A DNA stretch of 64,000 nucleotides from Thermodesulforhabdaceae bacterium (GTDB lineage Bacteria; Desulfobacterota; Syntrophobacteria; Syntrophobacterales; Thermodesulforhabdaceae), in NCBI GenBank assembly GCA_037482015.1, contig JBBFKT010000001.1, forward strand, positions 587,854-651,853. The letters run 5' to 3'. The position numbers were made by a program, and so were the translations under genes. The notes below the pieces were generated by a model. That model did no database searches. It saw only the letters and a program-made list of their open reading frames with translations, and was not told the DNA's origin. Shown here piece by piece: positions 208 to 14,584 of this stretch (positions are counted from its first letter, which is position 1; the number at the start of each line of letters is the position of its first letter).

Positions 208-861
208 ATGGACCAAGACCGAATTGTTCAAGTTCTTACTATTTTGAGAGATCTTTATGGCACAAGACCCTGGAACTGGCACACCAGGCAAAAACCTTTT
301 TACGTGCTCATCGCAACGATTCTTTCCCAAAGGACTCGGGACCCTCAAACCGATGCAGCAGCTAAGCGCCTGTTTGGGCAGTATCCTACACCTCAGGCTC
401 TCGCTGAAGCTCCTCTTGAAGATATAGAGAAACTTATAAAGCCCGTAAATTTTTACAAGACCAAGGCTAAGCGAGTTAAAGAAGTAAGCCGGGTGATAGC
501 TCAGGAGTTTGGTGGTAAAGTTCCTGAGTCGCTTGATGTTCTTATGAAACTACCAGGAGTAGGGCGAAAAACTGCTAACTGCGTTCTTCTCTACGGCTTT
601 CATCAGACGGCTCTCCCTGTGGATACTCATGTTCATCGTATTGCTAACCGCCTTGGGTGGATTGAAACAACATCTCCTGAAGAAACGGAAATGGTGCTGA
701 CTAACATCGTTCCTTCAGAGTGGATTCCTCTCGTGAATGATCTTTTCGTAAAGCATGGTCAGACCTTTTGTAGCCCTCAGAAGCCCAGATGCCATGATTG
801 CCCGGTTTTTTCTCTTTGCCAACACGGGCGTGGCGTTGAAGTCAAGAGTCATACAAAGTAA
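208..861 (+). CDS. nth: endonuclease III, archaeal-like subfamily
   Basis: 217-residue DNA glycosylase/AP lyase of base excision repair, expected to remove oxidised pyrimidines. The helix-hairpin-helix reads LPGVGRKTAN (about residues 114-123) and carries the catalytic Lys. The catalytic Asp lies in VDTHVHR. The C-terminus has the C-X6-C-X2-C-X5-C ligands of the [4Fe-4S] cluster. The LSQRTRD motif near residue 38 replaces the LSAQ..D of the classical bacterial enzyme and is what I associate with archaeal EndoIII. The ATG is preceded by AGGAG at 196-200. A second, classical nth lies at 5704-6342, so the two probably differ in substrate. The glycosyltransferase gene follows after 21 bp. Confidence 0.93.
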   Translation: MDQDRIVQVLTILRDLYGTRPWNWHTRQKPFYVLIATILSQRTRDPQTDAAAKRLFGQYPTPQALAEAPLEDIEKLIKPVNFYKTKAKRVKEVSRVIAQEFGGKVPESLDVLMKLPGVGRKTANCVLLYGFHQTALPVDTHVHRIANRLGWIETTSPEETEMVLTNIVPSEWIPLVNDLFVKHGQTFCSPQKPRCHDCPVFSLCQHGRGVEVKSHTK

Positions 862-5703: not shown

Positions 5704-6342
5704 TTAAGATTGTTTGCCATAATCACACCAGGGTTGCAGACTGCAGGCGTTACACTTGGGATTTTTAGCCGTGCATGTTCTTCTTCCGTGAAGAATCAGT
5801 GCGTTACTAAACCATGTCCAGATAGTTTTAGGCACAAGGTTCATGAGTTCTCGCTCTATAATCTCCGGCTGGCTTGATCCACTCACTCCAAGCCTGTTGA
5901 CTACTCGCTGGACATGTCTGTCAACGGCTATACCTTCTTCAATACCGTAGGCGTTTCCGAGCACCATAGCCGCTGTTTTTCTGCCAACTCCGGGGAGTTT
6001 AGTGAGATCATCGATATTTTCCGGCACTTTGCCGCCAAAACGTTTTTCCAGCATTTCCGCACAGTTTTTTAGAGTTCGTGCTTTTTGCCTGAAAAATCCC
6101 GTGGGGCGTATGATTTCTTCAAGCTGCTCAACAGGAATGTTGATGAAGTCTTGAGGCGTCTTGCATTGCTTGAATAGCTTTGTGGTTACTTGATTTACTC
6201 TTTCGTCCTTACATTGAGCAGAAAGAATCACTGCCACAAGAAGTTCAAAAGGATTTGAAAACTTCAATTCAAGGGGCGCTTCGGGATATTCTTTCCGAAG
6301 CGCTTCGATGATATTTTCGAGTTTTTCTTTTAAATCTCCCAT
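5704..6342 (-). CDS. nth: endonuclease III, classical bacterial type
   Basis: 212-residue bifunctional DNA glycosylase/AP lyase for oxidised pyrimidines. It has LSAQCKDERVN at the substrate pocket, LPGVGRKTAAMVL (helix-hairpin-helix with catalytic Lys), the catalytic Asp in VDRHVQRV, and C-X6-C-X2-C-X5-C iron-sulfur ligands (CTAKNPKCNACSLQPWC). The start overlaps the end of the leucyl aminopeptidase gene by 13 bp, which implies translational coupling. It is the second EndoIII gene in this window, the other being at 208-861. Confidence 0.95.
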   Translation of the reverse strand: MGDLKEKLENIIEALRKEYPEAPLELKFSNPFELLVAVILSAQCKDERVNQVTTKLFKQCKTPQDFINIPVEQLEEIIRPTGFFRQKARTLKNCAEMLEKRFGGKVPENIDDLTKLPGVGRKTAAMVLGNAYGIEEGIAVDRHVQRVVNRLGVSGSSQPEIIERELMNLVPKTIWTWFSNALILHGRRTCTAKNPKCNACSLQPWCDYGKQS

Positions 6343-8686: not shown

Positions 8687-9796
8687 TTACCTTATTTTCA
8701 ATGTTGCCAGAGCGATGAGAGCCAGGATGCCTGATACTATCCATAAACGGACGACGACTTTAGGTTCAGCAAGCCCCCGGTATTGCAGTGCGTGATGAAG
8801 AGGCGCTCTTGTGAATAGGCGTTTCCCTATGAGTTTTACACCGATTTTGTCCTGAATCTGGCTCGATAGAGCTTCCGCCACGAAAAGCCCGCCAAGAATA
8901 GGGAAAAGCATTTCCTGCTTAAGGAATACGCACATTGTGGAAATAGCTCCTCCCAGAGCAAGGGATCCCGTATCTCCCATGAATATCTGAGCCGGGTAAG
9001 CGTTATACCATAGAAAGCCCAGCCCGGCGCCCCCTAAGGCAGCGGCTACGACGGCGAGTTCTCCAGCCCCAGGAATGTAAGGATAGTATAGGTATGCCGA
9101 ATAGATTTTGTTTCCAATAACGTAAGCAAAAACTCCAAGCACAGAAATGGTAAGAATTGAGGGCATTATAGCAAGTCCGTCCAATCCATCGGTTATGTTT
9201 ACGGAATTGGTTACAAACATTACGAACAAAATGACAAAAACTGTGTAGAGCCAATGCCCCAGGTTAACAAGGGGAGCTTTGAGAAAAGGGATGTAAAAAA
9301 GCGTAGCTTCCCTTGGGTGGAGCGGACTGAAGGAACTTGTAACATAGCACGCAAAACCTATGGCAAAAGCCGCCTGAACAATTAGCTTTGTTCTCTCAGA
9401 AAGACCCCGATCACCACTTTTTCGCCTGAGTTTCTTTATATCGTCGATAAATCCGAGAGCACCAAACCAGGTTGTTGCGAATACAACACCCCAAAGAAAG
9501 GGGCTCGATAAATTGCCCCATAGAAATAGTGAGAAAAAGGCTCCACCGATTATCAGAATTCCTCCCATCGTGGGAGTGTCACCTTTCCCTGATATGAACC
9601 TGAGGCCAGTTTCCCGCTGTTGGTCGAGAATCTTGCGACGATGAAGAAACATTATGTAGGGTTTGCTACAGATAAGAATAAAAATGGCCGCTGTAAGAGC
9701 CGCCATGATAGCTCGAAAGGTTGTGTAGTTTACCAGTCGAAAGAAGGAGAGAAAATCTGAAAGGGACATAAGCAGGTTGCCAAGCCAGTAAAGCAT
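8687..9796 (-). CDS. mraY: MraY-type phospho-MurNAc-pentapeptide transferase, variant
   Basis: 369-residue inner-membrane enzyme with about ten helices. MraY transfers phospho-MurNAc-pentapeptide to undecaprenyl phosphate (lipid I). Canonical signatures are present: TPTMGG near residue 74, the Asp pair in ALGFIDD, NSVNITDGLDGLAIMP, and YPAQIFMGDTGSLALGG with the third catalytic Asp. The cytosolic loop normally reading HHHYELKG reads HHALQYRG, so the third His of the HHH motif and the following Glu are replaced. GGAGG lies upstream of the ATG. It is paired with the MurG-HEAT gene away from any dcw cluster, so it may be a paralogue with altered substrate rather than the essential copy. Confidence 0.88.
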   Translation of the reverse strand: MLYWLGNLLMSLSDFLSFFRLVNYTTFRAIMAALTAAIFILICSKPYIMFLHRRKILDQQRETGLRFISGKGDTPTMGGILIIGGAFFSLFLWGNLSSPFLWGVVFATTWFGALGFIDDIKKLRRKSGDRGLSERTKLIVQAAFAIGFACYVTSSFSPLHPREATLFYIPFLKAPLVNLGHWLYTVFVILFVMFVTNSVNITDGLDGLAIMPSILTISVLGVFAYVIGNKIYSAYLYYPYIPGAGELAVVAAALGGAGLGFLWYNAYPAQIFMGDTGSLALGGAISTMCVFLKQEMLFPILGGLFVAEALSSQIQDKIGVKLIGKRLFTRAPLHHALQYRGLAEPKVVVRLWIVSGILALIALATLKIR

Positions 9797-9874: not shown

Positions 9875-12046
9875 CTATCCTAGTTCTTCTTTAGCTGTTG
9901 TTTTAGTTCCCGCCAGACAGGCCTTTTGTTTGCGGACTCGCTCTTCACACAAAGCCATTATAGCACAGTAGGTCTCCCTGATGGGGAAATGGGGGACAAA
10001 ATCAGTGGATGTTAGAATAAATCCATTCAGTCCCCTGTAAAGTTCTGGCGAAGGGCAGATAACATGTCTTTCCAGCATCTTGAGAATACCTCGCAATGCT
10101 GCTTCCCGCACTTGCCAGAAATGATGCGTTCCTAGAGAAAAGAGCACTTCAATTGCTCGATTATCAACTCCAATGTGCCCTATGGCAACGGCAGCTTCCA
10201 CGACCACTTCAAATGATGGATCCCTTAACTTCGCAAGAATCCTTTTGAACCATACATCCTTTCCAGCCAGCAGTTCTGAAAAGTGAGTTACCACCTGGCA
10301 GGCCTCAGCCCTAACCTCGTAATAGGGATCATCAAGGGCTTTTTCTACTGCTCTGGCAACCTTTGCGTCAAAGACTCCAAGAAGCCTTATGCTTTTTAGG
10401 GCGTTACGGCGTATAAACCCAACTTCTCGAAAATCACCTCCTAGAAGTCTTTGCCATAGCGGAACGGGGGTTCTATCTTCGATCATTCTCAAAAGTTCCG
10501 GTATTTTGTCGCGGCAGAGCAGGTATCCTGCGAGTTTAACGCCCATGTTTCGAATCTCCCACCGATGGTCATTTAAAAGCCGTCCGACACGGTAGCGAAA
10601 GTATTCCAGTTCATCTTCATCCTTTAGCACATCTAGGGGTGTATAAGCGGAAGGATTTTTTTCATAGGAAAGTTGAAGAGCGCGAAGCAATTTCCCATTC
10701 GTCCATGCGGGTGGAATATCCATGGATGCAAGGATTTTTTCTGGAGGTAGAGGCACAGCTCTTCCTTCAATTATGTCGGCGATAGTTTTTGCTGCATTTC
10801 GCTGGAAGATTGCTTTGGCGCATAGGCTCATTGTTGTAAGTAAAACGTTATCCTGCAGGATTCTCAGGATGGCTTGAGCTAGCACCTGCCCTTTAACTTG
10901 CTCTACGATCTCTCCGTTTTCATTCCTGGTCACATCCTCGTAAAGAACATAAGCTGCTCCAGTTTGTTTCATTGCTCTGGCATTCATTACCTGATGATCC
11001 CCGGGAAGCCCACTTTTGGGGATCAGAATAGATGGCTTCCCCATGGCAGCTATTTCACTGATCGTTCCGGCACCACTTCTTGCTACTACAAGATCAGCAA
11101 TAGCATAGACATTCTGAATGTTATAAAAGTAATCCTGCCCGTAGTAAAAATTTGGTAGTTCTTGCTTTATTTCTTCATCAAGTTGAGCAATACGTTCTTC
11201 TGTGTCGCGTTCGGCATCATAAATCGGCGTTTTTGAAAGTCCTCTTCCGTGCACGATAAAAATTTTGTGACGGTACGGAAAAAGGTAAGGAATAGCGTCC
11301 ACAACGGCACGGTTTATAGTTCTTGCCCCCTGGGATCCACCAAATATGAAGACCACTTTTCTGTTTGGTGGGACCTTGAAAGGCAAGGCGGACTCAGACG
11401 GTTTTTTATCCATCACCGATATAGACTGCCTCACAGGGTATCCGCTGATAACGCCGTTTTTAGGGAAGAAGCTAAGAGTCTGTTCAAAACTTACAAATAC
11501 TCGATCAACCCATTTTCCCAATATCAGGTTAACCTTTCCGGGGATGGTATTTTGTTCATGCAGGAAGATTCCTATGGGGACTCTAAACAACCGTTTCAGA
11601 ACCAGAGCAGCCATAACGGTAGGAGCACTGACGTAGCCACCTGTGGAGATCACCCATAAGGGTGGGAATTTCAAAAGATAAACGATACTTTTTAAAGTTC
11701 CAAAGGCTGTAACTACAAGGCACCAGCAAAGCTTAACGGGATTCCTTACACCTTCAAAAGGATGTGCCCAGGTATGAAGAAGCTGAAAGCCTTCCTTTGG
11801 AATAATGTGGTCTTCTGCTTTGCCGGCTTTTCCAATGTATATGACTCGATAGTTTGGGTGTCGGCGCTTGATTTCTTCCAGGATCGCAAGCAGGGGATAA
11901 ACATGTCCCCCCGTTCCACCACCGGCAAGAATCACAGTTGGAGTTTTACGGACAGGCTTAATCCTGAAACGTACAAGAACACTCATTAACCCGTATAAAC
12001 ATACCAATAGAGCTATGGCACCTAACATAAAAGTTAATATCTTCAT
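9875..12046 (-). CDS. murG: membrane-anchored MurG glycosyltransferase fused to HEAT repeats
   Basis: 723 residues, about twice the usual MurG length (about 355). Residues 1-38 form a hydrophobic anchor plus basic stretch absent from normal MurG. Residues 39-430 are a full MurG: GGGTGGHVYPLLAI, GGYVSAP, LHEQNTIPGK, GYPVRQ, FGGSQGAR, and ARSGAGTISEIAAMGKP with the donor-site Glu, then DHQVMNA. From about 455 to 690 it has a series of helical HEAT-like repeats (for example IRRNALKSIRLLGV and VRAEACQVVTHF). MurG adds GlcNAc to lipid I to make lipid II. The HEAT tail suggests a protein-docking role. It overlaps the Sua5 gene by ATGA and precedes mraY, so it is translationally coupled. Confidence 0.88.
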   Translation of the reverse strand: MKILTFMLGAIALLVCLYGLMSVLVRFRIKPVRKTPTVILAGGGTGGHVYPLLAILEEIKRRHPNYRVIYIGKAGKAEDHIIPKEGFQLLHTWAHPFEGVRNPVKLCWCLVVTAFGTLKSIVYLLKFPPLWVISTGGYVSAPTVMAALVLKRLFRVPIGIFLHEQNTIPGKVNLILGKWVDRVFVSFEQTLSFFPKNGVISGYPVRQSISVMDKKPSESALPFKVPPNRKVVFIFGGSQGARTINRAVVDAIPYLFPYRHKIFIVHGRGLSKTPIYDAERDTEERIAQLDEEIKQELPNFYYGQDYFYNIQNVYAIADLVVARSGAGTISEIAAMGKPSILIPKSGLPGDHQVMNARAMKQTGAAYVLYEDVTRNENGEIVEQVKGQVLAQAILRILQDNVLLTTMSLCAKAIFQRNAAKTIADIIEGRAVPLPPEKILASMDIPPAWTNGKLLRALQLSYEKNPSAYTPLDVLKDEDELEYFRYRVGRLLNDHRWEIRNMGVKLAGYLLCRDKIPELLRMIEDRTPVPLWQRLLGGDFREVGFIRRNALKSIRLLGVFDAKVARAVEKALDDPYYEVRAEACQVVTHFSELLAGKDVWFKRILAKLRDPSFEVVVEAAVAIGHIGVDNRAIEVLFSLGTHHFWQVREAALRGILKMLERHVICPSPELYRGLNGFILTSTDFVPHFPIRETYCAIMALCEERVRKQKACLAGTKTTAKEELG

Positions 12047-12699
12047 TGATTTTCCTTGCTGTCACCATCCAGAACTTTCATAAGCAAATCATACGGGATA
12101 GCCCCCTCCCGCAGAATCTTTATTTCTCCCCCTGAGCAGTCAACAACAGTTGATGGAGTCCCAAATATAACACCATTGTCAATAATTACTGCAAGGAAGT
12201 TTTTGAGCCTTGGTGGTATTGATGAAGGGTCCCTCAGAGGCATTTCCCCTGAAGGATTTGCGCTTGTTGATATTATCAATCCCCCCGCAAGTTCTGCAAG
12301 AAGTCTTGCCACAGGATGAGACGAGACACGGACTCCAATTTTTCCTGTCTTTGCATGCAGTATTTCTGGAAGCTTCGGATTTGCCTTGAGCACGATCGTT
12401 AGAGGTCCTGGCCAAAATTTAAGAGCGAGTTTTTCGACTAGATGATTCCACTCTACCCATGCATCTTTTGCATCTTCAAGGGACGCAGCAATGAGCGGAA
12501 GAGGTTTATCTTCGGGGCGGCCTTTAGCAAGATAGATGTTTTGTATCCACTCTTCCCGGTAAGGTGCGGTGCCAATACCGTAAATTGTTTCGGTAGGATA
12601 GAAAAAAATCTGACCCTTTTGAAGAAGTTCACGCCACAAATTTTTAACTTCTTCAGGGATTACCTCATCCTTGTTAAGTTGCCAGTAGAGAGGATTCAT
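12043..12699 (-). CDS. L-threonylcarbamoyladenylate synthase (Sua5/YrdC family)
   Basis: 218-residue cytosolic enzyme that makes threonylcarbamoyl-AMP from Thr, bicarbonate and ATP for t6A37 in ANN-decoding tRNAs. The YrdC-domain hallmarks are FYPTETIYGIG, KGRPEDKPLPL (substrate-binding KxR..K), WPGPLT and STSANPSG. At this length it is the short TsaC-like form without the Sua5 C-terminal domain. The last four bases overlap the murG-HEAT start. Confidence 0.93.
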   Translation of the reverse strand: MNPLYWQLNKDEVIPEEVKNLWRELLQKGQIFFYPTETIYGIGTAPYREEWIQNIYLAKGRPEDKPLPLIAASLEDAKDAWVEWNHLVEKLALKFWPGPLTIVLKANPKLPEILHAKTGKIGVRVSSHPVARLLAELAGGLIISTSANPSGEMPLRDPSSIPPRLKNFLAVIIDNGVIFGTPSTVVDCSGGEIKILREGAIPYDLLMKVLDGDSKENQ

Positions 12700-12771: not shown

Positions 12772-13278
12772 CTATTTCATAGTCTCAGAAAGTTCCTCGT
12801 TTTTCTTTAGGATCGCTTCTCTAGTTTCAGCACGGTAGGCAACAAGGCGGTTTTTAAGTCTTTCATCCCATAAAGCCAAAATTTCTACAGCCAGGAAAGC
12901 TGCGTTTTTTGCTCCCCCTTTTCCAATGGAGACCGTTGCTACAGGAACTCCCGGAGGCATCTGCACGGTCGAAAGAAGTGCGTCCCAGCCATGAAGGGGA
13001 GACGAATCTATGGGAACTCCTATGACGGGAAGAACTGTGTTGGCAGCGATAGCGCCTGCAAGATGAGCAGCCCATCCGGCTCCTGCAATTATAACTTTGA
13101 TACCTCGACTATCAGCAGTTTTGGCAAAGTTCGCCACTTCTTCTGGTGCACGATGAGCCGAAAGCACCTTAACTTCATAAGGCACTTCGAAAGATCTAAG
13201 CACTTCCAGTGCACCTTCCATCACCTTCATATCAGAGTCACTGCCCATAAGAACCGCTACTAATGGTTTTTTTGTCAT
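12772..13278 (-). CDS. purE: N5-carboxyaminoimidazole ribonucleotide mutase
   Basis: 168-residue class I PurE of purine synthesis, converting N5-CAIR to CAIR. It shows GSDSDMKVMEGA (phosphate loop), SAHRAPEEV (catalytic His region) and AGAGWAAHLAGAIAANT. No PurK is present in this window. The gene lies 13 bp after purD and forms the tail of a purD-purE unit. AAGGAGG precedes the ATG. Confidence 0.96.
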   Translation of the reverse strand: MTKKPLVAVLMGSDSDMKVMEGALEVLRSFEVPYEVKVLSAHRAPEEVANFAKTADSRGIKVIIAGAGWAAHLAGAIAANTVLPVIGVPIDSSPLHGWDALLSTVQMPPGVPVATVSIGKGGAKNAAFLAVEILALWDERLKNRLVAYRAETREAILKKNEELSETMK

Positions 13279-13291
13279 CTGTTACTCCTCC

Positions 13292-14584
13292 TTACTCCTT
13301 CCCGATGTCGCTTCTGTAATACATACCTTCAAAACTTACTTTTTTCATTTCCCTATAGGCGATTTCTCTAGCTTCCGCTAGAGTGGAACCTCGACTTATA
13401 ATCCCAAAGACTCTTCCACCTGTAGTCACCAATTCTCCATTATCTCCAATTCCAGTCCCCGAATGAAAGACAATACAAGAAGGATCCACCTCTTCCAGTC
13501 CTTTAATTGGCACTCCAATTTTGTATCTATCTGGATAACCCTTATACCATCCTTTTTTGCCCTTGCATCGACCACTAACAGCTATAAGACACAGATAGTA
13601 TGAAGGATCCCAATCCAGACGAATTTCTTTTAGCCGGCGTGTGGATATGGCTTCACAAACATCAACAAGATCGGTTTTAAGGCGAGGTAGAATAACCTGA
13701 GCTTCAGGATCGCCAAGTCTGATGTTGATTTCTAACACATAGGGGGTAATGGAATTATGTTCTTCAACAAGCATTAATCCAAGGTAAATTACGCCTTCGT
13801 AGTGGATTCCGCGTTCGCTGATGCCCTTTACAAGGGGGCGAGCAACCCGGCTCATGATATGTTCTGTAAGTTCTTCAGTTAGCCACGGGTGAGGACTGTA
13901 AGATCCCATTCCGCCAGTGTTTTTTCCCTGGTCGCCATCGTAGGCTCGCTTGTAATCCTGAGCGGCAACCATCGGAAGAATGGTTTCTCCATCGGTAAAG
14001 CAGAAGAATGATAATTCTCTACCGTAAAGCCTTTTTTCTATGTCCACTCTATTTCCTGCGTCTCCAAATATTCGATCAACCATTATAGAGTGAACAGCCT
14101 CTTCTGCTTCTTCTGGAGTGCTACATACAATGGAACCTTTCCCTGCGGCGAGTCCGTCCGCTTTAACAACCACAGGATAGCCCACAGATCGAACATATTG
14201 TTTGGCCTTGTCGGGATCATCAAAAATGGCGAATTCAGCCACAGGTATGCCAAGATCTCTGAGCAGCACCTTTGTGTCGCACTTGCTCGATTCAAGGCGG
14301 CTCGCCCTTTTGTCCGGTCCTACTATAGGAATACCACGCTTCCTGAATTCGTCCACTATGCCAGCAGAAAGGGGCTTTTCTGGGCCAACGAAGGTTAGAT
14401 CAATCTTTTCCTTTTCTGCAAAGTCGGCTATCTCTTCAACTGTTTGAGCGTTAACGCATTCGGCTATTTGAGCTATGCCAGCGTTGCCGTGAGCAACATA
14501 GACTTTTTTAACTCTAGGGCTCTGAAGGAACTTCCACGCTATCGCATGGTCTCTTCCACCGCTTCCTACCACAAGAACCTTCAT
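13292..14584 (-). CDS. purD: phosphoribosylamine-glycine ligase
   Basis: 430-residue ATP-grasp enzyme (GAR synthetase), second step of purine synthesis. The N-terminal domain has VVGSGGRDHAI and HGNAGIA. The ATP-grasp core has VVKADGLAAGKG, and the metal/active-site region has NIRLGDPEAQVILPRL. The length is normal. It lies between the IMP cyclohydrolase and purE genes. GGAGG precedes the start. Confidence 0.97.
   Translation of the reverse strand: MKVLVVGSGGRDHAIAWKFLQSPRVKKVYVAHGNAGIAQIAECVNAQTVEEIADFAEKEKIDLTFVGPEKPLSAGIVDEFRKRGIPIVGPDKRASRLESSKCDTKVLLRDLGIPVAEFAIFDDPDKAKQYVRSVGYPVVVKADGLAAGKGSIVCSTPEEAEEAVHSIMVDRIFGDAGNRVDIEKRLYGRELSFFCFTDGETILPMVAAQDYKRAYDGDQGKNTGGMGSYSPHPWLTEELTEHIMSRVARPLVKGISERGIHYEGVIYLGLMLVEEHNSITPYVLEINIRLGDPEAQVILPRLKTDLVDVCEAISTRRLKEIRLDWDPSYYLCLIAVSGRCKGKKGWYKGYPDRYKIGVPIKGLEEVDPSCIVFHSGTGIGDNGELVTTGGRVFGIISRGSTLAEAREIAYREMKKVSFEGMYYRSDIGKE

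Follow-up and report, generated by a model that had tools for sequence, protein, structure and literature searches.

The locus raises the question of whether a MurG-like protein that carries an N-terminal hydrophobic helix and a C-terminal HEAT-like domain, and whose gene adjoins mraY, is an additional, specialised enzyme or the lipid II synthase of the cell. In the window (the whole stretch of 64,000 nucleotides analysed here) the gene occupies positions 9875..12046 on the minus strand and encodes 723 aa; it is defined by its open reading frame, a ribosome-binding site and an ATGA overlap with the upstream gene. Its start codon is the ATG at 12046, which overlaps the stop of a sua5-like gene; AAGGAA is found about 5 bases before this ATG and an in-frame stop 6 codons upstream of it. 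The start is therefore well supported and the hydrophobic helix belongs to the gene. Together with a helix modelled by AlphaFold at residues 2–29 and a hydropathy of 2.47 over 19 residues, this confirms the membrane anchor proposed by the sequence-only reading as a single N-terminal transmembrane helix (11960..12043, minus strand). The helix itself is poorly conserved (18% mean identity among aligned homologues), and it is followed by basic residues with a mean net charge of +4.3 in 34 homologues. With such a positive-inside flank the C-terminus of the helix, and hence the rest of the protein, should lie in the cytoplasm.

Behind the helix we find a complete MurG core (residues 35–430; 10757..11944, minus strand), assigned from Pfam, TIGR01133 and the match to solved MurG by sequence and fold. 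Both GT28 domains are present (PF03033 with 84.9 bits, cut-off 26.2; PF04101 with 85.5 bits, cut-off 22), and AlphaFold places a MurG fold at residues 37–426. The model reaches a TM-score of 0.80 (normalised by target) against 1f0k, and a fold search of the PDB with it listed MurG and other glycosyltransferases. For conservation we aligned 43 homologues, all of which match GT28 and HEAT_2 and 41 of which match HEAT. In all 43 sequences H48, N166, S238, E331 and Q352 as well as the stretch G42-H48 are invariant and align with solved MurG; we take these positions to be the glycine loops, the catalytic His and the donor-site Glu and Gln. The equivalog model TIGR01133 is matched over its full length (5–353 of 353, E 1e-67), but the score of 228.7 bits falls short of the cut-off of 250.25. 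The protein is therefore filed as a divergent MurG variant with a new architecture, neither as a plain member nor as a new kind of system.

A variable linker (residues 431–475; 10622..10756, minus strand), with 30% mean pairwise identity and no invariant position, connects the core to a HEAT solenoid (residues 476–690; 9977..10621, minus strand), which is delimited by the Pfam HEAT and HEAT_2 matches, the AlphaFold model and conservation. The HEAT-like domain suspected from the sequence passes both Pfam cut-offs (HEAT 34.1 bits, cut-off 23.5; HEAT_2 33.7 bits, cut-off 27.7). Structure modelling past residue 440, proposed earlier as a check, returned a helical solenoid: consecutive helices at about 435–674 with pLDDT values mostly of 90–98, the stacking of helix pairs being judged from secondary structure and not from coordinates. 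For the whole protein the model has a mean pLDDT of 90 and a pTM of 0.85. Mean pairwise identity is 53% in the HEAT domain, with 20 invariant positions, compared to 56–58% in the catalytic GT28 domains, while helix, linker and C-terminal tail are weakly conserved (18–30%). Since the HEAT domain is conserved as strongly as the enzyme, it is under selection and not a loose tail. The invariant charged residues include D538, R546, R547, D573, E577 and E613; W644 is invariant as well.

The neighbourhood of the gene bears on its role. Directly downstream lies mraY (8687..9796, minus strand), in line with the expected operon. This gene had been taken for a variant, but with 297.6 bits against TIGR00445 (cut-off 192.05) and a full-length match to solved MraY it is an ordinary mraY, and a genome search finds no other MraY above that cut-off in the genome. 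Upstream are the overlapping sua5/YrdC-like gene (12043..12699, minus strand) and, further away, purE and purD (12772..14584, minus strand), all conserved and named from our reading of the sequence. The murG-mraY pair of the window thus stands behind purD-purE-sua5, and the order purE-sua5-murG-mraY is kept through the class Syntrophobacteria. The dcw cluster of the genome is found on another contig and reads murE-murF-murD-ftsW-murC-murB (L156 4972..13170, G000:C11; gene names by reading, order confirmed by BLAST). Two genes are missing from it: mraY, which usually stands between murF and murD, and murG, which usually follows ftsW and precedes murC. Exactly these two sit together in the window. 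The dcw cluster of Syntrophobacter fumaroxidans MPOB (L159) has the same order and likewise contains neither mraY nor murG. The search of the window genome for a second, short murG in the dcw cluster, which the sequence-only reading had recommended, found none, and the gene of the window encodes the only full-length MurG in this genome (95% complete). The protein is thus the sole and presumably essential MurG of the cell, and the idea of an extra, specialised enzyme is not supported.

This architecture is not confined to the genome of the window. Within our sample of 56 genomes of the class Syntrophobacteria (NCBI) we found helix, MurG and HEAT to be the MurG of nearly all members, including Syntrophobacter fumaroxidans. 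Among 395 genomes of the phylum, matches spanning both MurG and HEAT occur outside the class only in the families f7 (3 genomes) and f32 (1 genome), and these proteins are without the membrane helix; the remaining listed matches outside the class cover the MurG core only. The fusion is therefore the common MurG of a lineage, which, as had been anticipated, reduces its novelty. Still, a description of MurJ-MurG or MurG-HEAT proteins was found in none of the open-access papers searched (a collection outside which most subscription journals lie), in agreement with the earlier remark that no enzyme of this architecture was known; in public databases these proteins may well be annotated as MurG.

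In two families of the same class, f5 and f6, the syntenic gene is a single frame encoding MurJ, MurG and HEAT (1,204–1,247 residues), followed by mraY. The frame lies at L037 2689..6285 (plus strand), with the same gene in G040–G054; it is intact in 13 genomes, and in G050, G055 and G039 it is interrupted by the end of a contig or by stretches of N. Its MurG part scores 218.1 bits against TIGR01133 (cut-off 250.25, as above). The MurJ part passes the equivalog cut-off of TIGR01695 (284 bits; cut-off 235.55) and agrees with solved MurJ in both sequence and fold, with a TM-score of up to 0.84 (normalised by target). The residues R18, R24, D39, R52 and R270, which are essential in E. coli MurJ (PMC4790310), are kept in 14 of the 14 domains examined. 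A model of the fused protein has a pTM of 0.57, which leaves the arrangement of the domains uncertain. In the trees of MurG and of MurJ alike, the fused forms group as a single clade. No other MurJ was found in five of the fusion genomes, two of which are single-contig assemblies (87 and 91% complete). The fused MurJ has its nearest relative in G078, the sole sampled genome of its class, which is not Syntrophobacteria. In G078 this murJ of the fused type is followed after 25 bases by a separate murG, within which the contig ends (L090 / L130).

The genome of the window contains a single MurJ homologue (L052 1462..3039, plus strand; G000:C1:349605-351089). It passes the MurJ cut-off but carries N, Y and G in place of R52, R53 and E57, a loss shared by the MurJ homologues of most of its order; in a Burkholderia MurJ homologue R52 is dispensable (PMC4790310). 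This divergent homologue is the only MurJ that the order retains. We also considered whether the standalone MurJ of this order is the split-off half of the fusion, which is unsupported, the protein being a distant MurJ. As a separate observation, many f5 genomes with the fused MurJ also hold a second, more canonical MurJ (L056–L064).

The fusion offers a possible origin for the membrane anchor: the ancestor of the class may have possessed a MurJ-MurG-HEAT protein, of which the order of the window kept only the last MurJ helix. In the models, helix 2–29 corresponds in length to the last MurJ helix of the fused protein (494–522); 7 residues separate the former from the first MurG strand and 8 the latter, and both helices have the same predicted direction. 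Helix-only and fused forms share synteny, and in G078, outside the class, a fused-type MurJ directly precedes murG. When profiles are compared, the helix region matches MurJ best exactly at the place of the last helix; however, this match is weak (P 0.08), and the helix is poorly conserved. Also, the best tree puts the helix-only forms outside the fused clade, although their grouping as one clade is not rejected (p-AU 0.365), so that the trees are compatible with either loss or gain of MurJ. On balance we give the loss of MurJ a little under an even chance.

Compared to canonical MurG (E. coli 1f0k, P. aeruginosa 3s2u; TIGR01133), the protein of the window shares the GT28 fold, the active-site residues, the sole copy and the place in the pathway, but adds the N-terminal helix and a HEAT solenoid of about 215 residues; its gene lies outside the dcw cluster, is paired with mraY and encodes a protein scoring below the equivalog cut-off. 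With the known HEAT-repeat proteins (PF02985, PF13646) it has the alternating solenoid helices in common and both cut-offs are passed, whereas here the solenoid forms the tail of a peptidoglycan enzyme. The MurJ domain of the relatives resembles MurJ (E. coli 6cc4, 7waw/7wax; TIGR01695) in score, charged residues and fold but, unlike the E. coli protein, bears MurG and HEAT at its C-terminus. Fusions described previously are ftsW-murG (Kribbella flavida), murG-murC (Cellulomonas gilvus) and murE-murF (PMC4929429) as well as MraY-MurG (PMC6420597). They share with the sister families that MurG is fused to a second enzyme or to a polytopic membrane protein acting in the pathway. What differs is that the sister families have MurG joined to the flippase MurJ and followed by a HEAT solenoid; those reports mention neither feature.

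The architecture, the single copy, the pairing with mraY outside the dcw cluster, the conservation and the fusion in relatives are computed results; catalysis, membrane orientation, docking of a partner by HEAT and the transfer of lipid II to a flippase are inferred. Taken as a whole, the protein is probably the sole housekeeping MurG, a membrane-tethered lipid II synthase that couples MraY, MurG and flippase and whose HEAT domain docks another protein of this pathway. The neighbouring MraY would make lipid I, to which the anchored MurG would add GlcNAc to yield lipid II; the N-terminal helix would hold MurG at the membrane, instead of peripheral binding only, and the HEAT solenoid would serve as a docking surface, most likely for MraY, for a flippase or for the machinery of elongation or division. 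In f5 and f6, lipid II synthesis and export would reside in one polypeptide, MurG handing lipid II to MurJ in the same chain, while in the lineage of the window a single helix would hold MurG where the last MurJ helix sits in the fused protein. The MurJ-MurG fusion in sister bacteria suggests that lipid II synthesis and export are physically coupled. The scaffolded lipid II or lipid-linked sugar synthase envisaged by the sequence-only reading therefore survives in part: a scaffolding or coupling role is plausible, being favoured by the MurJ-MurG-HEAT fusion in sister families, but not for a specialised extra enzyme. More tentatively, and in our estimate somewhat against the odds, the whole class might run MraY, MurG-HEAT and MurJ as one unit in which lipid II is passed directly from synthase to flippase; the MurJ-MurG-HEAT protein would then be a single-chain synthase-flippase, HEAT would dock MraY, and the form found in the window would be a reduced machine.

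Alternatively, the HEAT domain could stabilise MurG or mediate its self-assembly rather than dock a partner. Bordetella MurG forms oligomers (PMC6420597), a confident model (pTM 0.85) shows solenoid and enzyme packed together within a single chain, and no partner of HEAT was identified in this analysis. However, other MurGs manage without HEAT, and the invariant positions of the domain, some of them charged, suggest more than a structural role, even if some may be structural; we therefore regard this alternative as unlikely, at about one chance in four, and prefer docking of a partner. That the protein is not a lipid II synthase at all but serves a lipid-linked sugar as some other GT28 enzyme, as the existence of other GT28 families and the score below the TIGR01133 cut-off might suggest, is highly improbable given that it is the only MurG candidate in a genome in which murB, murC, murD, murE, murF, ftsW, rodA and mraY are all present, that its gene adjoins mraY and that relatives fuse the same gene to MurJ.

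How lipid II reaches the flippase from MurG, and which protein flips it, MurJ or FtsW, has long been debated. The natural MurJ-MurG polypeptide, conserved in sister families and in some genomes with no other MurJ found, provides independent evidence, by gene fusion, that the product of MurG goes directly to MurJ. The MurJ-MurG chain also provides a single protein for measuring synthesis-coupled flipping, and the mraY-murG pair outside the dcw cluster, together with the conserved putative docking domain, is a handle for finding the partner of MurG. Elsewhere in the window, two different endonuclease III-like proteins, recognised by inspection of the sequence only, are encoded within 6 kb of each other (208..861, plus strand; 5704..6342, minus strand).
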